Of a stretch of 64,000 nucleotides of DNA, positions 678 to 10,500 are shown piece by piece. Every line of letters starts with the position of its first letter. Position 1 is the stretch's first letter. A program made the translations under genes and the position numbers. This stretch comes from Pseudophaeobacter sp. EL27. GTDB taxonomy: Bacteria; Pseudomonadota; Alphaproteobacteria; Rhodobacterales; Rhodobacteraceae. Under the pieces are notes generated by a model. The model searched no databases. It saw only the letters and a program-made list of their open reading frames with translations, and had not been told where the DNA came from. The stretch lies in NCBI RefSeq assembly GCF_900313025.1, contig NZ_OMPQ01000002.1:248001-312000 (forward strand), written 5' to 3'.

Positions 678-1751
678 ATGACTGATCTCAGCACGCTTTA
701 TGCCCAAAAGATTGCCAATGGTGATCTGCGCCCCGACCCCGCCCAGGAAGTGGTTCTGCCGCAATTCGACCGGATCTCGGCCGGGTTGCAGGCCGAGCCA
801 GTGAAACGCGGGCTGTTCCGTCGCGCCAGCCCCGCCCCCGCACCCAAGGGTCTGTATCTTTGGGGCGGAGTTGGTCGCGGCAAATCCATGTTGATGGATC
901 TCTTTGTCGACAGCCTTGGTGATATCCCGTCTCGGCGCGTGCATTTCCATGCCTTCATGCAGGAAATCCACGCCAAGATGCATGCCGCCCGCCAGGACGG
1001 CGTGCAGGATGCACTGTCGCCGGTCGCGCAGGAGGTGGCCGCCTCGGTCCGGGTCTTGGCATTTGACGAGATGCAGATCTCTGACATCACCGATGCGATG
1101 ATTGTTGGCCGCTTGTTTGAGGCCCTTTTTGCAGCGGATGTCTGTGTTGTCACCACCTCCAACCGGCTACCAGATGAGCTGTATAAAAACGGGTTGAACC
1201 GGCAGCTCTTCCTGCCCTTCATTGATCTTATCAAAGACAAGATGGAAGTCTGGGAGATGGTCAGCCCGGTGGACTACCGTCAGGACAGGTTGAAGGGCAG
1301 CGAGGTCTATTTTGCCCCGGCGGATGCTGCGGCGCGAGAGGCCTTGCAATCGATCTGGCAGGATCTCTCAGGCGGTAAGGCACAACCCCTGACTCTGGAG
1401 GTAAAGGGGCGTGAAGTGGTGCTCCCGGCTTTTCGCAACGGTGTGGCACGGGCGACGTTTTTTGACCTCTGCGGCAAAATGCTTGGCCCTGGCGATTACC
1501 TGGCGATTGCTGAGGAGGTGAAGGTGCTGGTGCTTGAGGGCATCCCCCGGCTCAGCCGCAACAACTTCAACGAGGCCAAACGCTTTGTGACCCTGATAGA
1601 TGCCCTCTATGAGGCGCGGGTCCGGCTGATCTGCACGGCGGCGGCCGAGCCGGAGTTTCTCTATGTCGAGGGAGACGGAGCGTTTGAATTTGAACGCACC
1701 GCCTCACGGCTGCGCGAAATGCAGGACCAAGATTGGGGACAGGACCAGTAG
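678..1751 (+). CDS. zapE: Cell division protein ZapE (AFG1-like ATPase)
   Basis: This 357-residue P-loop ATPase is of the AFG1/ZapE family. In E. coli ZapE associates with the Z-ring under stress; mitochondrial Afg1 helps turn over respiratory subunits. The Walker A motif GGVGRGKS lies at about 63-70 and the Walker B-like LAFDEMQISD at about 128-136. The conserved FxHF-type segment (RRVHFHAFM) and the later SRNNFNEAKRF region, which is typical of the family, are both present. Length matches the usual 350-390 residues. The gene is followed by hairpins and an intergenic repeat, and is convergent with folC. Confidence 0.95.
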   Translation: MTDLSTLYAQKIANGDLRPDPAQEVVLPQFDRISAGLQAEPVKRGLFRRASPAPAPKGLYLWGGVGRGKSMLMDLFVDSLGDIPSRRVHFHAFMQEIHAKMHAARQDGVQDALSPVAQEVAASVRVLAFDEMQISDITDAMIVGRLFEALFAADVCVVTTSNRLPDELYKNGLNRQLFLPFIDLIKDKMEVWEMVSPVDYRQDRLKGSEVYFAPADAAAREALQSIWQDLSGGKAQPLTLEVKGREVVLPAFRNGVARATFFDLCGKMLGPGDYLAIAEEVKVLVLEGIPRLSRNNFNEAKRFVTLIDALYEARVRLICTAAAEPEFLYVEGDGAFEFERTASRLREMQDQDWGQDQ

Positions 1752-1762
1752 GCAAGCTGAAA

Positions 1763-1793
1763 AAGGGGCCTTGCCCCCTCGCGCCAAAGGCGC
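1763..1793 (+). terminator. Hairpins after zapE
   Basis: Two short inverted repeats lie just past the zapE stop. One is GGGGC-ctt-GCCCC (1765-1777) and the next is GCGC-caaag-GCGC (1781-1793). Neither is followed by a clear T-run, so termination is only a suggestion; the intergenic repeat at 1833-1910 may contribute. Confidence 0.3.
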
Positions 1794-1832
1794 TCACCCC
1801 CAGGATATTTTGGGCCAAATGAAAGAGAGACC

Positions 1833-1910
1833 GCGCCGCGTCAGCGGCGCTGGGCCCAAGGGGCGAGGATCATTCTGCAAGAATGTTCCGAGACGGGCGG
1901 GAGCCTCCCT
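1833..1910 (-). repeat. Intergenic repeat family, copy A
   Basis: One copy of a dispersed repeat found six times in this window, in minus orientation here. Read on the minus strand it runs GGCTCCCGCCCGTCTCGG, then a variable hairpin CATTCT-tgc-AGAATG, then a C-rich arm with TTGGGCCCAGCG, then a GC-rich hairpin CGCCGC-tga-CGCGGCG. It sits between the convergent genes zapE and folC. The other copies are at 26296, 26548, 53582, 59971 and 60081. Confidence 0.75.
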
Positions 1911-1923
1911 TCGCCAGCTCTGA

Positions 1924-3198
1924 TTAACCGTTCTCCCGCAGGATATGGCCTGCAAGGTAAAGGGAGCCACAGATCAACACGCGGGAGTCCGGTGCTTTTT
2001 GCAAGATTGCCTGCAAAGCCTCTGCCGTGGTATTGGCAGTTGCGGCCTCCAGTCCCACCGATTGCGCCGCAGCCTGGGTTGCCTCGGCGGGTAGCGTGTT
2101 GATCTCATCCGGTATTGAGATTGCTGTGAGGCTTGCAGCCTGCCGGGCCAGCGGGGCCAGATATCCGCTGACATCCTTGGTATTGAGCATACCGCAGATC
2201 AGATGGGTTGGTCGTTTTGGCAAGCCCGCCAAGACCTGTTCCAGGGCAAGTCCGGCGGCTGCATTATGGCCACCATCCAGCCAGAGTTCGGCCTCTGCCG
2301 CCATCTCAACCAATGGGCCGGTTTTCAGCCGTTGCATCCGTGCGAGCCAGCGCGCCTGTGTCATGGCGGCCTCGCAGGCAGCGTCATCTGCGCCGAGATA
2401 GCGCAGCGCGGCCAGGGCAGCCCCGGCATTCTGTACTTGGTGCGCCCCCAGAAGTGCGGGCATCGGCAGGTCCAGCAAGCCCCGTTCGTCCTGGAACACC
2501 AGGCGATCCCGCTCCTGGCTGACATGCCACTGCTGACCATAGGCAATCAGGGGCGCGCCCAAGCCTGCGGCTGTGGCCTCGATCACCTCAAGTGCCTCAT
2601 CTGGCTGCGGGCCGACAATTACCGGTACTCCCCGTTTGATAATCCCGGCTTTCTCAGTCGCGATCTTGGTCAGGGTATCACCGAGGAACTGCTCGTGATC
2701 GATGGAGATTGGCGTGATCACGGTGAGGGCGGGCTGGGCAATCACATTGGTGGCATCAAGACGCCCACCCAGGCCCACCTCCAACAGGGTATAATCCGCC
2801 GGGTTGCGGGCAAAGGCCAATAGGCCCGCCACGGTGGTGATCTCAAAATAGGTGATGCTCTCGCTGCCATTGGTGACGTAGCACTCATCCAGAACCTCGG
2901 TGAGATGCTGTTCTGTGATCAACTCTCCTGCCAAGCGGATGCGTTCGTGAAAGCGCGCCAGATGTGGTGAGGTATAGGCATGTACAGATTTGCCCCAGCC
3001 CTCTAGCCCAGCGCGGATCATCGCCTGGGTTGACCCCTTGCCGTTGGTGCCCGCCAGATGGATCACCGGCGGCAGTTTTTCCTGCGGATTGTCCAGACGC
3101 TCCAGCAGGCGCCAGACCCGATCCAAAGTCAGATCAATAATCTTGGGGTGCAGCGCCAGCATGCGGGCGAGGATGGCATCAGAGGTCGGCTGGGTCAT
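1924..3198 (-). CDS. folC: Bifunctional folylpolyglutamate synthase/dihydrofolate synthase
   Basis: Adds glutamate to dihydropteroate and to reduced folates in the cytoplasm. The 424-residue length is normal for FolC. The Mur-ligase-type P-loop GTNGKGS is at about 50-56, and the DHE-like SIDHEQFLGDTL segment and the downstream LDGGHN motif, which starts the C-terminal ligase domain, are all visible. It lies downstream of accD in the same direction, about 100 bp away with a hairpin between. The accD-folC arrangement is common in alphaproteobacteria. Confidence 0.97.
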   Translation of the reverse strand: MTQPTSDAILARMLALHPKIIDLTLDRVWRLLERLDNPQEKLPPVIHLAGTNGKGSTQAMIRAGLEGWGKSVHAYTSPHLARFHERIRLAGELITEQHLTEVLDECYVTNGSESITYFEITTVAGLLAFARNPADYTLLEVGLGGRLDATNVIAQPALTVITPISIDHEQFLGDTLTKIATEKAGIIKRGVPVIVGPQPDEALEVIEATAAGLGAPLIAYGQQWHVSQERDRLVFQDERGLLDLPMPALLGAHQVQNAGAALAALRYLGADDAACEAAMTQARWLARMQRLKTGPLVEMAAEAELWLDGGHNAAAGLALEQVLAGLPKRPTHLICGMLNTKDVSGYLAPLARQAASLTAISIPDEINTLPAEATQAAAQSVGLEAATANTTAEALQAILQKAPDSRVLICGSLYLAGHILRENG

Positions 3199-3298: not shown

Positions 3299-4243
3299 TC
3301 AGCTTTCTGCTGCAGGGGTCTGTGCGGCATCTTTAGCCTCATTCGCGGCCTCTTCGCCTGCTTCTGGTGCTGGCAGATCACCGACCACCTGTGGCGACAT
3401 CCCCATCAACATGCGAATAATGGTGATCAGCTCAGCGCGCATTTCGGTGCGCGGGATCACCCGGTCCAGCATGCCGTGATCCAGCAGGTATTCGGCGCGT
3501 TGGAAACCTTCGGGCAGTTTTTCGCGGATGGTCTGTTCAATAACCCGGGGACCGGCAAAGCAGATCAGCGCGTTGGGTTCGGAAATATGCACATCCCCCA
3601 ACATCGCGTAAGACGCCGTCACACCGCCAGTGGTGGGATGGGTCAGCACCACGATATAGGGCAAGTTGGCCTCTTTCAGCATCTGCACCGCAACAGTGGT
3701 CCGGGGCATCTGCATCAACGACAGGATACCTTCCTGCATGCGGGCGCCACCAGCCGCTGAGAACAGCACCAGCGGGCGGCCCAGTTTGACGGCCTCTTCA
3801 GCTGCGGCGATGATCGCATTACCGACATACATGCCCATGGAGCCGCCCATAAAGGAGAAGTCCTGCGCTGCGGCCACAATGGGGGTGCGGCCAATCTCGC
3901 CGGCGGCCACCAGCATGGCCTCTTTTTCATCGGTCTTCTTCTGCGCCGCCTTCATGCGGTCGGGGTATTTTTTCTGGTCGCGGAACTTCAGCGGATCGGC
4001 GATCGGCTCGGGCACCGTGACCTCGGTGAAGACCCCGCCATCAAACAGCGCGGTGAAACGATCACGCGGGGTGATATGCATATGATGCCCACAGCTGGTG
4101 CAGACATTCTGGTTGTCGCTCAGCTCACGGTGAAACAGCATGGTGCCGCATTCGCTACACTTCTGCCAAAGATTCTCGGGCACTTCGCGACGCGAAAACA
4201 GCGAGTTGATCGTTGGGCGGACGTAGTTGGTGATCCAGTTCAT
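3299..4243 (-). CDS. accD: Acetyl-CoA carboxylase carboxyltransferase subunit beta
   Basis: Carboxyltransferase beta subunit that, with AccA, transfers the carboxyl group from biotin to acetyl-CoA to make malonyl-CoA for fatty acid synthesis. The N-terminal four-cysteine zinc ribbon is intact (Cys29, Cys32, Cys48, Cys51). The core shows GGARMQEG and the [14 protein letters not shown] segment of the crotonase-like fold. The 314-residue length is normal, with an acidic, Ala-rich C-terminal tail. It lies downstream of the CPBP protease gene with a 74-bp gap, so it may be transcribed with it. Confidence 0.98.
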
Positions 4244-4317: not shown

Positions 4318-5208
4318 TCAGCGCCGTATCACCAGCCGTGCCGCCAGCCACAGAACCAGCATGGTGGCGCAATCCACCATCAGCCAGGGGCGCATTTCCG
4401 CGACATCCGACATCTCATAGGGCAGCAAATAGAGCGCCAGCCCATGCAGGCTGCTGGGTGACCCGAGGACAAGCAAGGCCACGATGTTATTGACAAAATG
4501 CACTGCAATGGCGGGTCCCAGGGTGCCGGCGCGCGCCGTGAGATCTGCCATCAACAGGCCAAACCCCATGGCCCACAGACAGATCAGCAGGGCATTGTCC
4601 CCGGCAACCTGTGGCATGTAGTGGGCCGCGCCAAACAGAGCTGCGGGCAGCCCAAGCCAGACCAGCGGGTTTTGGAATCGCGCCGCCAGCCCTTGTTGCA
4701 GATAGCCGCGAAACACCAGTTCTTCAGCGCTGACCTGCACCAGCAGGGCCAGCAGTGACAGGGGCAACAGGCCGAGCCAGACCGGCCAGCTCAGATTGGC
4801 GGTCAGCGGCGCGCCAAAATCATAGGGTGGCAGAATGAGCAGGGTGGCAAAGATCGCCAATCCCGCCAGACTGCAACGCACGAACTGCTGCAGCATCAGC
4901 CCCGGCGCCCCGACCAGACTGAGCAGGCTTCGGTGCTGCAGCATAGCTGCTGCCAGCCCGACCCCGAGGGTCAGAAAACCAAAGCTTGCCAGCAGGACCT
5001 GCAGGGCAAGCGGGGTGCGGCCCTGTTCCAGCGCGATCAGCCAGTCGAGGGAGGTAAAGCGCAGCAGGGTCAGGAAAAGCACCAGATTGAGCGCATAACT
5101 GAGTGCAGCAATCATCCCGAGCCCCAGCAGCAAACGCCAGAGCTGCGGCTTGGACCGGCCCGGCGCCACCAGCGCCTCATGGGCTGGGTAAGCTGATCCA
5201 AGGCTCAT
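4318..5208 (-). CDS. CPBP family intramembrane glutamic endopeptidase
   Basis: A 296-residue polytopic membrane protein with about eight hydrophobic segments. The CPBP (Abi/CAAX-protease-like) catalytic motifs are all visible: EExxxR as E162-E163-R167, a histidine in FGAAH (His196), and HFVNN (His237, Asn241). The enzyme therefore looks active. Its start overlaps the stop of the upstream pseudo-ABC gene by 4 bp (ATGA at 5205-5208), implying translational coupling. Substrate and role are unknown; context suggests it works with the pseudo-ABC/cNMP-binding protein. Confidence 0.85.
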   Translation of the reverse strand: MSLGSAYPAHEALVAPGRSKPQLWRLLLGLGMIAALSYALNLVLFLTLLRFTSLDWLIALEQGRTPLALQVLLASFGFLTLGVGLAAAMLQHRSLLSLVGAPGLMLQQFVRCSLAGLAIFATLLILPPYDFGAPLTANLSWPVWLGLLPLSLLALLVQVSAEELVFRGYLQQGLAARFQNPLVWLGLPAALFGAAHYMPQVAGDNALLICLWAMGFGLLMADLTARAGTLGPAIAVHFVNNIVALLVLGSPSSLHGLALYLLPYEMSDVAEMRPWLMVDCATMLVLWLAARLVIRR

Positions 5209-8200
5209 CGTGTTTCATCCTCTTTCGGCTCAAACCCTGTATCGCCGCTTGGCAGCTCAACTTTTGGCGCCACCTCACCCGATAAACCCATGGTCAACAA
5301 GCCCTCTTCTCTGACCTTGGTCGCCAGAGCCACCAAATGCCCCGAGACCGTTTCCAGCAACTGCGTGGCGACGCCCGCATCGCTTTCGATCACGGCGCGG
5401 TATTCTTCGGCACCGATGCGCAGGAACAGGCAGGGTGCGGCAGCCCGGAGATCCAGTTCACGTGGCTGCCGCAGAATTACAGCCAAATCCCCAATCAAAC
5501 GCCCCGGTTCGATGACCGAGATTGGCGCCATGCCCTCCGGCGCATCCGGCCAGTCCAATTCCGCCTGCCCCTCAAGACAGAGATAGACTGCATCGCCAAT
5601 TTCACCGCGTGCAAAGACCAGATCGCCCTGCGCAACCCGATGCCATTGCGCCGAAAAAGCCAGCAGGCGCTGGTTGCGCGAATCCAGCTGAGCAAAAAGA
5701 TCAGCCCGGCCAATCACATCCAGCTTTTGGTGGAAGTCTTCGGCAACCAACCCCTCTGGGCGGCCCTGCTGCCGTCGCTCAACACGCTCAGTCGGGCCAT
5801 CAATATGGCCATCCCGGATTTCAACAAACAGATCATAGCGTTCGGGGTGGCGGAACTCATCTTCCAGAAAGATCATCGTGGAGGCAGGCATTAGCGCCCG
5901 CAGCCTGTCGCGGGTGCGCAGACGACTGTCCGAATTATGGCTGGCCAGGGCCCGATCCAGAATCAACAGATCCGGGCGCTTGATTGCTGCACGGGTAAAG
6001 GCCGCGCGTTCCTGAAACACGGGGTCCAGCAGCGATCCCCCCAGCCCGGTGGGCAGATCATAAAGAATCAGGGCCAGACGTTTTTGCAACCCCTGCGCCA
6101 TCACCACCTCGCTCACGATGGCCTCGACCTGGCGTGCCTTATCCCCCGCATGGAGCGAAATCTTGCCAAACAGCGCGTTCTCCATCACCGAAAGCCGCGG
6201 GACATAGACACCGGAATCCAGAGCCGAGAACATGCCTTTTGATCGGGCGGTGAGCGCGCCGCCACTGGTGGCCCGGATGTTCAGAATGCGGGCCTTGAAG
6301 GCGCTGGGAAACCCAGGGCCGATCTGCTCCGCCGAGAGCAGGAAGGGGATCGTCATCAGCGCCACCCGGGAGGCTTCGCTCAGCCCCTGGCTGCCGCCCC
6401 TGTGTCGTCCCCGGACTTTGACCTCACCGCTTGGCGTGTTCTCCAGTGCGGCGTGTTCTTCGGCGGCACTGCACAGTCGGCAATATAGCTCTTCTTCCAA
6501 TCCCAGACGTTGAAACAGCGGGTGATCCAGATTCTCGCGGCCAAAGGTTTTGATCAGAGTTTCCGCCACCCCCAGACCAATTCCCAGGGTCTCCTCCGCC
6601 AGCTGCTGATCCCGGATCACATGATGAAACAACTGCCCCGGAGCCAGGAGCTCTTCGGGGGCAATGTCGCGCGTTGGAGTGGCAAAGAGCATATTGCTTG
6701 CCAGCGGCACCGCCGGGTTAAATTCCTGCGGGTCAAAATGGTAGACGGTGCTGTCCAGTCCAGCCTCGATCAGGCGTTGTTTGATCAAGGGGCGCAGCCG
6801 CACGATATGCTTTTCCAGCATCGGGTGTGTGCTAGGTTGTAGCTGGGCGTGCAGAGTGCGGCGAAACAACTGCTGGTCGACCCCCATGGCCTCGATCAGC
6901 TGAAACCACCAGTCGCGCATATCGCCTTCGGAACCCAATCCCGCCAGCGCCGGGTTCACCCAATCTGCCTCCAGCGAGTCCGGGCTATTGCCGGCGCGGA
7001 GAGCCTCGGCAATCTGGCGTTCGGTCTCGGCTGAGGGGCGCGGCAAGCTGGGCGTGCTGCGCAGGGGCATCAGCACATTGTCGCCCAGTGAGCCCGAAAA
7101 CAGATAGGGATGCGAATGCGCATAGCCGATCCGCGCTGCCAGCACCCCCTGATGTAGTGCCTCCAGCCGATGCCCGGCCACGGTAATCGACCCCCGCGTC
7201 GGCTGCACTTCACGGGTCAAAAGCTGGGCAAAGGCCGCCCGTTCGGCATCACTGCTGCTTTTGACCGCCACCCGGGCGCCCTGGGGGATCGTCAAGGACA
7301 GATCCTCGATCACCATGTTGCCCTCAGCGTCGCGCAGGGACACATTGCGGAAAATCACATCACCGCGCAGATGTGGCAGGCTCTTAGGCGTGCCCTCAAT
7401 CAGGGCGGCATCAATCATCCCCTTGGGGGCAAAGCGTTCGGTCATGATCACCCAGCGCAGCCCCATGTCCTGCACCTGATTGTAATAGGTCAACAGCTCC
7501 TTCCAGGGCGCCGACAGATCCTTATAGGCCGCCAGCCCCGCCACCAGGGCCCCGACGGTAATCTCACCGCGGATCGCCAGCACCCCACCTGCCGAATAAA
7601 ACACAAAAGGTGTCATATGGCCGATCGTGTTGTTGAGGAACTTCATGAAGTATTTTTTGTTGTAGATCCGGCGGCGGATATCAAACAACCGCCCCAGCCG
7701 GTCCGAGATCTGCGCCAGACGAAAGCGCCAGCCGCCATTGCCGCGCAGATCGGAAATCCCGGCGGCGGTCTCGCCGATCTCGGCAGCCAGCGCACGTACC
7801 TCCTGAATGCGTTTTTTGTTCAGCAGGTTGATCTGGCGCTGGAGCAGCGGGATCAACCAGGCCTGCAGCGGGATCAACGCAATGGAGACCAGGCCAAACC
7901 AGACGCTTTGCATGAACAAAAACGCCACGATGGTCAGCATCTGCCCCGCCTGAAACACCGGCTGCGCCAGTGCATCCCCCATCAGGCCACCCATGGGCTC
8001 GCTCTCCGAGGTGATCATCGACACCAGCTCCCCCTGGCTGGTGGTGCGGAAATAGGGTTTGGGAAAGCGGATCATGCGGTTGATCAAGGTATAGCGCAGC
8101 CGCCGCAGCAGCCGCTCCGCCGTCACCCCCTTGGCGGTGTTGAGCCGCATCTTCAGGACCCCGGCAACAAGCACCGCAGCCAGAAACCCGCAACACAGCA

Positions 8201-8402
8201 GCAAAAGATACTCTACCTGGCTGATCTCCTGCCCCCAGACCTGAACAATGGATTCTGGCGCACCAATGGCATCATTGATGATCCGCTTGGGCAGTTCCAA
8301 CGAGGCGTAAAGGAAGGGGAAAATCAGCAAGGTCAGTGCCAACAGGCCCAGCTGCTGACGCTTTGAGTAGCGCCAGATAAACGAAAACAGCGTGCGCGGC
8401 AT
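5205..8402 (-). CDS. ABC-exporter-like membrane protein with degenerate ATPase and C-terminal cNMP-binding domain
   Basis: The protein has 1065 residues from ATG 8402, chosen for the AAGGA just upstream; an in-frame ATG at 8453 would add 17. Residues about 15-300 form a type-I ABC exporter membrane domain with five or six helices. An NBD-like region follows but its motifs are lost. The Walker A site reads VKSSSDAERA, with no GxGKS. The signature is LLDPVFQER instead of LSGGQ. Walker B keeps LLILD, but the catalytic Glu is Arg (about 817). No H-loop His is evident. About 280 residues are inserted between two Q-loop/helical segments. The C-terminus (about 890-1025) is a CRP-like cyclic-nucleotide-binding fold with a GDLAV...PRELDL cassette. 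The long intact frame argues against decay, so it is probably a pseudo-ATPase sensor or scaffold. It overlaps the CPBP protease gene. Confidence 0.85.
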   Translation of the reverse strand: MPRTLFSFIWRYSKRQQLGLLALTLLIFPFLYASLELPKRIINDAIGAPESIVQVWGQEISQVEYLLLLCCGFLAAVLVAGVLKMRLNTAKGVTAERLLRRLRYTLINRMIRFPKPYFRTTSQGELVSMITSESEPMGGLMGDALAQPVFQAGQMLTIVAFLFMQSVWFGLVSIALIPLQAWLIPLLQRQINLLNKKRIQEVRALAAEIGETAAGISDLRGNGGWRFRLAQISDRLGRLFDIRRRIYNKKYFMKFLNNTIGHMTPFVFYSAGGVLAIRGEITVGALVAGLAAYKDLSAPWKELLTYYNQVQDMGLRWVIMTERFAPKGMIDAALIEGTPKSLPHLRGDVIFRNVSLRDAEGNMVIEDLSLTIPQGARVAVKSSSDAERAAFAQLLTREVQPTRGSITVAGHRLEALHQGVLAARIGYAHSHPYLFSGSLGDNVLMPLRSTPSLPRPSAETERQIAEALRAGNSPDSLEADWVNPALAGLGSEGDMRDWWFQLIEAMGVDQQLFRRTLHAQLQPSTHPMLEKHIVRLRPLIKQRLIEAGLDSTVYHFDPQEFNPAVPLASNMLFATPTRDIAPEELLAPGQLFHHVIRDQQLAEETLGIGLGVAETLIKTFGRENLDHPLFQRLGLEEELYCRLCSAAEEHAALENTPSGEVKVRGRHRGGSQGLSEASRVALMTIPFLLSAEQIGPGFPSAFKARILNIRATSGGALTARSKGMFSALDSGVYVPRLSVMENALFGKISLHAGDKARQVEAIVSEVVMAQGLQKRLALILYDLPTGLGGSLLDPVFQERAAFTRAAIKRPDLLILDRALASHNSDSRLRTRDRLRALMPASTMIFLEDEFRHPERYDLFVEIRDGHIDGPTERVERRQQGRPEGLVAEDFHQKLDVIGRADLFAQLDSRNQRLLAFSAQWHRVAQGDLVFARGEIGDAVYLCLEGQAELDWPDAPEGMAPISVIEPGRLIGDLAVILRQPRELDLRAAAPCLFLRIGAEEYRAVIESDAGVATQLLETVSGHLVALATKVREEGLLTMGLSGEVAPKVELPSGDTGFEPKEDETR

Positions 8403-9615: not shown

Positions 9616-9738
9616 AGAAGGTCGAAGGCTCTTTTGAACCAACGACTTGGCAAACAGCGGAGAGATCTTCGCAACACCGATCCCCAAGGCAGAAGCCGCG
9701 GGCAAATGGCCAAAGACAACAAAGGGTGCAGAACGCAT

Positions 9739-10500
9739 ATGGGCGGGTTTCTTAGCAAGCTGTTTCATCGACGCGCCTTGCGGCGCTGGCAGCATAGCGC
9801 AACGCGCGCCGCAAACATATCGCTGCCACTGCTGCGCCAACAACGCAACCAAGCCCGCGCCCTGCGCAGCCAGCTGGATCGGCTGATCCATATCGCTGAG
9901 GGGCGCCTGGCCCTGCCGCAGATTGGCTCCTCCTTCTTTCCACGCCCCCATGGCACCGACTGGTCCTGGCGCCCTGAGCTGTGGCGCGGCCCGATGCCGA
10001 CACCCGGGATTTCCTCGGTGCCGTCAAAATCCAAACTCGGCGAAGAAATCACCCTGTTTCACGATTGCAGCATTTCGGAACTGACCCTGCGCCAGTTGCG
10101 CAACAGCCGCGAAGAGGATCTCGCCCCCTTTGGCCTGCGCATGGATGTGTTCAATTTTGACGGCTCTTTCCTGTCGCTGGTGGTGGATTTGCCAACCGAG
10201 GCCTGCGAGGGGCTGTCGCGCCATCATCTGATGCGCATCGACAGCATCATCGAGACCGAAAAACCGATCGAGATCTTTGCCCGCCTCAATATCCGCCACG
10301 GTCCCAACACCGAGCAGCTGGTGCGGGAATTGCCTCTTGGTGAAAAGAACGTCACCGTGGAGTTTGACCTTGCCTACTCCGACCTGAACGAAAAGCGCAT
10401 AGAGCGGATCTGGCTCGACCTCATCTTTGAGGCCCCCGACATGAACCAGGTGGTGCTGCGTGATCTGACTTTTGCGCGCCACCGCCGCGCCAATATCTGA
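9739..10500 (+). CDS. Conserved hypothetical protein
   Basis: A 253-residue soluble protein from ATG 9739, where the protein-like sequence begins; upstream in-frame codons look like non-coding extension. The N-terminus is very basic (KLFHRRALRRW) and is followed by a helical stretch (LLRQQRNQARALRSQLDRL). The second half is strand-rich (FGLRMDVFNFDGSFLSLVVD, then VTVEFDLAYSDLNEKR) and looks like a beta-sandwich. I recognise no enzymatic motif. The next gene starts 10 bp after the stop, so the two probably form an operon. Confidence 0.65.
   Translation: MGGFLSKLFHRRALRRWQHSATRAANISLPLLRQQRNQARALRSQLDRLIHIAEGRLALPQIGSSFFPRPHGTDWSWRPELWRGPMPTPGISSVPSKSKLGEEITLFHDCSISELTLRQLRNSREEDLAPFGLRMDVFNFDGSFLSLVVDLPTEACEGLSRHHLMRIDSIIETEKPIEIFARLNIRHGPNTEQLVRELPLGEKNVTVEFDLAYSDLNEKRIERIWLDLIFEAPDMNQVVLRDLTFARHRRANI

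Follow-up and report, generated by a model that had tools for sequence, protein, structure and literature searches.

Type IV ATP-binding cassette (ABC) exporters such as MsbA, TmrAB and PCAT1 combine a membrane-domain fold with a nucleotide-binding domain (NBD), and ABC exporters in general are defined by ATP-driven motion. Here we describe a protein of 1065 residues encoded in a 64,000-nucleotide stretch of contig NZ_OMPQ01000002.1 of the alphaproteobacterium Pseudophaeobacter sp. EL27 (hereafter the window). It shares the fold and framework of these exporters but belongs to a family in which the ATPase residues are eroded, the NBD carries a repeat-bearing insertion of about 300 residues, and a module of the cyclic nucleotide monophosphate (cNMP)-binding type accompanies the protein. 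The product of the adjoining gene resembles the CPBP (Rce1-like, PF02517) intramembrane proteases, whose conserved catalytic residues it keeps; it differs from them in its linkage to accD in the Rhodobacteraceae, whether or not the ABC-like gene is present.

Among the described systems, HetC of Nostoc PCC 7120 likewise couples an ABC exporter with a cNMP-type domain. According to excerpts of the published work (PMC10986499), HetC is a peptidase-containing exporter that needs a catalytic ATPase residue and whose cNMP domain, required for function, is N-terminal rather than C-terminal as in the window protein; no peptidase family is found among the Pfam matches of the latter. The SbmA/BacA (SLiPT) peptide transporters have the ABC-exporter membrane fold and, in excerpts of a second source (PMC13316013), work without ATP, the membrane domain of SbmA being functional without an NBD. 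These same excerpts describe SLiPTs as lacking both the NBD and the coupling helices, whereas the window family keeps an enlarged NBD-like domain. A further likeness is to TIGR03896, the “bacteriocin-type transport-associated protein,” which the separate cNMP protein of the family matches weakly (E 4.3e-8, 32.9 bits, far under the cut-off). The window family, in contrast, is tied to a saccharide cluster, and no bacteriocin genes occur among the neighbour families identified. No description of the family, or of the glycan cluster that accompanies it, was found in the open-licence PMC literature among the titles, abstract starts and matches listed.

The 1065-residue protein matches ABC_membrane (PF00664) over residues 51–290 (E 5.9e-18), ABC_tran over residues 366–470 with 24.6 bits, just below the 25-bit cut-off, and cNMP_binding (PF00027) over residues 922–1008 (E 4.2e-11, 43.1 bits against a cut-off of 27.5). 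An AlphaFold model built on 57 sequences has a mean pLDDT of 79 and a pTM of 0.61, with the NBD-like parts mostly at 80–94, and Foldseek matches it to solved ABC exporters, for example TmrAB chain 6rai_B (TMt 0.62, 902 alignment columns). The reading frame overlaps that of the CPBP gene by 4 bp, both lying on the minus strand. The first-pass annotation, made from the sequence alone, had proposed an exporter membrane domain, a CRP-like fold at the C-terminal end and a 4-bp overlap with the next gene, and all three are borne out. Its statement that every ATPase motif is degenerate holds with one exception. The Walker A site (7227–7268) is AVKSSSDAERAAFA, which contains no Walker A motif; Ser430 occupies the position of the Q-loop Gln, LDPVF that of LSGGQ, Arg817 that of the catalytic Glu and Asp848 that of the H-loop His. 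The Walker B aspartate, Asp816, is still in place.

This pseudo-ATPase scaffold is supported as being under purifying selection. The ratio of nonsynonymous to synonymous substitution (dN/dS, by Nei–Gojobori) lies between 0.05 and 0.22 against seven relatives in each of five segments, namely the membrane domain, both NBD parts, the insertion and the cNMP domain, and between 0.15 and 0.24 for the CPBP gene against four relatives; synonymous sites are partly saturated (pS 0.32–0.74), so that these ratios are usable only as a contrast with 1. The decay that a ratio near 1 would indicate is thereby excluded. That the locus is a decaying pseudogene or an annotation artefact, a reading favored by the loss of nearly all ATPase motif residues and by the broken frame in Pseudophaeobacter leonis (L070), has in our estimation a negligible probability and was rejected on these ratios; the frame exceeds 900 residues, near full length, in 77 of the 80 fetched relative loci, and the model is ABC-like. 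Conservation is highest in the membrane domain, where homologue alignment blocks over residues 101–300 have a mean identity to the window protein of 0.78–0.88. The intracellular-loop regions near residues 112–125 and 210–228 fall within this part.

The window protein represents the Roseobacter branch of an old family of Alphaproteobacteria that derives from type IV ABC exporters. Scanning contigs for close peptide patterns yielded 84 confirmed relatives, of which the 80 loci were kept; by title these belong to the Roseobacter clade or to alphaproteobacterial bins. Full-length relatives are also found on plasmids of Azospirillum (about 33% identity) and of Sinorhizobium and Rhizobium (27–28%). 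A profile search at E <= 1e-60 gives a family match in 129 of 385 Alphaproteobacteria genomes; in a phylum-wide sample, 28 of 398 genomes match at E <= 1e-80, of which 27 fall within the class, and the lone match outside it is a membrane domain only, on a 3.2-kb contig. In the tree the 20 Roseobacter sequences fall into a single clade (support 1.0) that divides in two: Type A, which includes the window protein, joined with its sister Sulfitobacter dubius L086 (support 0.963), and Type B (support 0.997).

Across the family the ATPase residues are eroded, the Mg-coordinating ones most, and in the Roseobacters they are lost almost completely. Motifs were counted in 138 aligned sequences, 118 of them non-Roseobacter and 20 Roseobacter, and these counts are not independent of one another given the kinship of the sequences. 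Outside the Roseobacters the signature Gln is retained in 112/118, the Walker A Lys in 74/118, the catalytic Glu in 68/118, the H-loop His in 42/118 and the Q-loop Gln in 25/118, while the Walker B Asp is found in 10/118 and the Ser/Thr after the Walker A Lys in only 5/118. In the Roseobacters the Walker A Lys, Q-loop Gln, signature Gln, catalytic Glu and H-loop His are each present in 0/20 (single rows checked), and the Walker B Asp in 16/20. Homologues with intact motifs, one of the findings named beforehand as counting against the first-pass reading, are represented only marginally, by a single one of the 118 non-Roseobacter members: L245 contains GxxxxGKT, the Walker B Asp and Glu and the H-loop, with LSGAQ as its signature, and lacks the Q-loop Gln.

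An insertion in the NBD-like part is present in all 138 aligned sequences. In the window protein the spacing from N442 to N742 is 301, giving an insert of about 300 residues rather than the 280 first estimated, and the range in the alignment is 280–326. The insertion is not an unrelated domain; profile–profile self-comparison shows it to be, at least partly, an internal repeat. The segment 551–722, containing the second N-x-L-F, matches the segment 723–830, containing the third, with a probability of 98 (E 1.4e-13); the first (425–550) matches the second with a probability of 90 (E 1.4e-6) and the third with a probability of 69 (E 4.6e-5). One such helical segment is normal between the Q-loop and the signature of an NBD. 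The matches therefore indicate that a normally single segment is present three times.

The cNMP-type module is a regular partner of the family, as a downstream gene or as a fusion. Wider flanks were available for 106 loci, seven on plasmid records and 99 in genome regions (97 of them from the 129 matching class genomes, the rest of which were covered with short flanks or not at all and fall outside these counts). A cNMP gene lies downstream on the same strand in 88 of these loci and is fused in 11, so that the proposal that the domain belongs with the ABC-like protein is upheld in 99/106; no module was found in the remaining seven, each with at least 1.7 kb of downstream sequence. The S. meliloti pair is annotated as an ABC transporter and a “Crp/Fnr family transcriptional regulator.” A canonical cNMP phosphate-binding cassette consists of Gly-Glu and Arg-Thr/Ser-Ala, and the 88 separate cNMP proteins conform to it (G 88, E 85, R 88, T 85, A 88). 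In the window domain Gly971 and Arg981 are kept, Glu is replaced by Asp972, and T-A-T is replaced by E-L-D. Among the 77 Type A sequences, the window protein included, G and R are invariant, E is replaced by D in 77/77, and T/S is replaced by Q in 55/77. Judged from these residues, it is uncertain whether the window copy binds an ordinary cyclic nucleotide. In excerpts of PMC10986499, the HetC cNMP domain bound ppGpp in vitro and cAMP gave no significant protection, making ligands other than cyclic nucleotides realistic.

One recurrent neighbour family was identified as adenylate/guanylate cyclase (PF00211). Cyclase profile matches occur within the fetched flanks in seven of the 106 loci, and also at L280, a full-length member locus outside the 106. 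In four loci the cyclase is a directly adjoining, same-strand neighbour of the ABC/cNMP genes: it is upstream by 66 bp in L170 and by 91 bp in L171, both loci with fused genes, and it lies next to the cNMP gene in L161 and L177. In L090 it is 1.4 kb away, and in L153 and L235 it is further off or on the opposite strand. The adjoining co-directional cyclases hint at where a signal for the sensor may arise.

The family usually lies near a cluster of six genes encoding four glycosyltransferases (two GT28-like, two GT4-like), a histidine phosphatase and a polysaccharide-deacetylase-like protein. This setting hints at a pathway for a saccharide or glycolipid. At least three of the six lie within the fetched flank in 71/106 loci, and all six in 44/106, mostly divergent from the ABC–cNMP pair; parts of the cluster also lie beside the family member in S. 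meliloti. In a control of 26 stretches (16 accD regions, six membrane-domain-relative regions and four window pieces), only one had at least three cluster genes, L279, itself the locus of a membrane-domain relative. L086, sister to Type A, is a fused gene still inside a complete glycan cluster, and in the window genome a complete copy of the cluster is situated some 17 kb from a Type B paralogue (48% identity). Taken together, the synteny and the tree would most simply derive Type A from a fused gene that once lay in the cluster and then moved, the window copy having left the cluster and settled before a CPBP–accD pair.

We consider there to be an even chance that the family represents a glycan-linked ABC-exporter derivative that is not ATP-driven but gated by its sensor domain. 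The membrane domain would still change conformation, although ATP hydrolysis would no longer drive the change. The enlarged NBD-like domain would relay to the membrane domain, via the conserved intracellular loops, whether the cNMP-type domain has its ligand bound, and the protein may gate or regulate the movement, or the synthesis, of a lipid-linked saccharide as its putative cargo or target. CPBP is co-translated in Type A and may have become a client later, without having been a founding component. A more far-reaching version, which we put forward tentatively and whose probability we place well short of even, is that a ligand-controlled gate replaced the ATP motor: the NBD would have been enlarged by repeats, catalysis switched off (the Mg site first and the rest in the Roseobacters) and a cNMP-type sensor added, in some lineages with an adjoining cyclase, resulting in a conduit or regulator for surface glycans that is gated by a signal and independent of ATP, and whose stages of decay persist in living lineages.

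Several observations weigh against a sensor-gated glycan conduit. The Walker B Asp of the 16 Roseobacter sequences means that some nucleotide or metal may still be bound, and the alignment of motifs as degenerate as these is uncertain. The evidence for repeats spans 54–60 aligned columns and not the rest of the insertion. With its altered cassette, Type A may bind a different ligand or none. Cyclases in seven of 106 loci may overall reflect background; the window genome, the sole genome in which cyclase density was measured, has five PF00211 matches. None of the six cluster genes was found in 27/106 loci, where flanks were limited, and the saccharide link is one of neighbourhood, with the window copy itself outside the cluster. 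The model is weak at residues 111–200 (pLDDT 43–71), including the first intracellular loop, and the broken L070 frame counts here as well.

The first-pass annotation had instead proposed a dedicated signalling or regulated-proteolysis unit, in which the pseudo-ABC protein and its cNMP sensor would control the CPBP protease or present a substrate to it. The neighbour is indeed a CPBP protein (296 residues, PF02517, E 1.2e-15), and its catalytic EExxxR, His and HxxxN are intact as described: E162, E163, R167, H196, H237 and N241 are invariant in 90/90 aligned homologues. A CPBP-like gene directly follows the ABC frame in 74 of the 80 Roseobacter loci (partial at the contig end in L061), with a gap of −11 to +32 bp, thus within 40 bp, in 74/74 pairs and an overlap in 67, where the start codon is taken as the candidate closest to the start in the window. 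The six loci without CPBP include L049 and L081, with full downstream DNA, and L055, L070, L072 and L074, which are cut short or broken. Counted by eye, CPBP is adjacent in 24 of the 25 genomes with a Type A match of at least 1000 residues and at least 54%, the remaining genome being cut at contig ends. The pairing is therefore tight within one Roseobacter subclade, but it does not extend to the family. CPBP occurs in only one of the 106 wider loci by the CPBP profile, which a very divergent CPBP could escape; this locus, L085 of Ruegeria conchae, is itself an accD locus. No CPBP was found beside the Type B paralogue or beside some other Roseobacter copies, nor in S. dubius. Partial or split matches (55–77%) in G760, G821 and G857, outside the 25 genomes, show no CPBP match. 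One Rhodobacteraceae genome, G154, contains two Type-A-like copies (G154:C1:452520-455546 and 4038675-4041707), one beside CPBP and the second, left out of the count of 25, with no CPBP nearby.

Conversely, CPBP is often found without the ABC-like gene. CPBP-like genes occur in 127 of 198 Rhodobacteraceae genomes (E <= 1e-25) and the ABC-like gene in 38 (E <= 1e-100). Sixteen CPBP loci were taken from genomes that lack a full Type A match: none has an ABC-like gene in 12 kb, and accD is next to CPBP in 15 of these, the exception being L210; DUF6478 and CPBP lie close together with no ABC-like gene between them in L204, L205 and L207, and DUF6478 lies 2–4 kb from CPBP in several others. Of the 77 near-full-length loci, 74 contain accD and 75 DUF6478. 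Homologues lacking the adjacent CPBP gene, which the first-pass annotation had named as counting against its reading, do occur in the wider family, and a role for CPBP as its founding partner was rejected. The ABC-like gene is probably the later arrival, and the simplest history would be one in which it came in front of a pre-existing CPBP–accD pair. The conserved junction implies co-translation since that arrival and leaves room for an acquired link. The joint ABC–CPBP unit is a lineage-specific arrangement of the Type A subclade, the wider family is of more interest than this unit, and we regard the proteolysis reading as unlikely. The accD-linked CPBP gene itself is common in Rhodobacteraceae and is sometimes tandemly duplicated, for example in L200.

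Two further readings concern the energy source. In a secondary transporter like SbmA, the published precedent in excerpts of PMC13316013, an ion gradient would drive the membrane domain and the NBD-like part would be a structural leftover. Membrane-domain-only relatives do exist: a stand-alone ABC-exporter membrane domain of about 400 residues, with no NBD and related to the window protein, is found in the window genome (L003), and CopB lies shortly upstream in four of the seven membrane-domain-only loci (the window genome, L274, L276 and L277), from which L280 was left out as a full-length member. Unlike the SLiPT proteins, however, the family retains a large NBD-like domain under purifying selection and conserved intracellular-loop regions, and we hold this reading to be quite unlikely. 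Type IV exporters commonly form heterodimers in which one site is degenerate, and the protein could be the degenerate half of such a pair, with a partner supplying the catalytic site. ABC genes do lie near some members, as in Azospirillum L088 and S. meliloti L273; these are accompanied by substrate-binding proteins and permeases, and are therefore importer-like. No ABC exporter is present among the recurrent neighbour families identified, which are cNMP proteins, glycosyltransferases, the phosphatase, the deacetylase, the cyclase, an AMP-binding enzyme and Exo_endo_phos; other recurrent frames were not identified, many of them being antisense shadows. Moreover, the loss in the Roseobacters takes the Walker A together with the signature, so that both composite sites would suffer, and we judge a heterodimer half decidedly improbable. 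An anti-phage defence system was also considered and rejected, neither window protein giving a PADLOC match at 0.001; relatives of the window protein give weak PADLOC matches (mad3 and, by way of the cNMP domain, TIR and Pycsar models).

A large family of this kind, whose architecture persists under purifying selection as the ATPase residues disappear stepwise, would illustrate how a primary transporter turns into a gated or regulatory protein and how a cNMP-type module can take control. The decay series, from the near-intact L245 to the fully lost Type A, supplies natural variants on which the idea can be tested. In addition, the family is a marker of a conserved alphaproteobacterial glycan gene cluster. 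Positions of the features are collected in Table 1.

Table 1. Features of the window and of related loci (residue numbers refer to the 1065-residue protein).
Feature	Location	Position	Strand	Basis or remark
ABC-exporter-like pseudo-ATPase fused to cNMP-type domain, 1065 aa	Window	5205..8402	minus	Open reading frame, Pfam, model; start 8402 agrees with homologue starts
Transmembrane domain, residues 1–340	Window	7383..8402	minus	Pfam PF00664; holds the best conserved stretch
NBD-like domain, first part, residues 345–450	Window	7053..7370	minus	Walker A and Q-loop lost
Insertion, residues 451–722	Window	6237..7052	minus	Extra copy of N-x-L-F helical segment of NBD; profile–profile self-comparison, model
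NBD-like domain, second part, residues 723–868	Window	5799..6236	minus	Walker B Asp816 retained; no LSGGQ, catalytic Glu or H-loop His
C-terminal cNMP-type domain, residues 886–1033	Window	5304..5747	minus	Pfam PF00027, cassette counts
CPBP-family (Rce1-like, PF02517) intramembrane protease, 296 aa	Window	4318..5208	minus	Usual accD neighbour in Rhodobacteraceae
accD	Window	3299..4243	minus	After CPBP in loci with and without ABC gene
DUF6478 gene	Window	9634..10500	plus	Pfam PF20086, E 2.1e-129; far side of Type A ABC gene site
Stand-alone membrane domain	L003 (G000:C11)	1252-2469		
Stand-alone membrane domain	L194	7570-8784		
Cyclase gene beside ABC/cNMP genes	L170	9664-11883		
Cyclase gene beside ABC/cNMP genes	L171	9648-10988		
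Cyclase gene beside ABC/cNMP genes	L161	after 9998		
Glycan cluster copy	L193	6902-12878		
Glycan cluster copy	L086	886-6895		
Glycan cluster copy	L160	440-6588		

The stand-alone membrane domain of L003 is set among copper resistance genes, encoding CopB, a cupredoxin, a YHS protein and a DUF411 protein, and another membrane-domain-only locus, L279, lies by a glycan cluster. In L086 (10298-13054), the fused gene is followed by genes for a glutathionylspermidine-synthase-family protein, a DUF1190 protein and a bestrophin-type channel.

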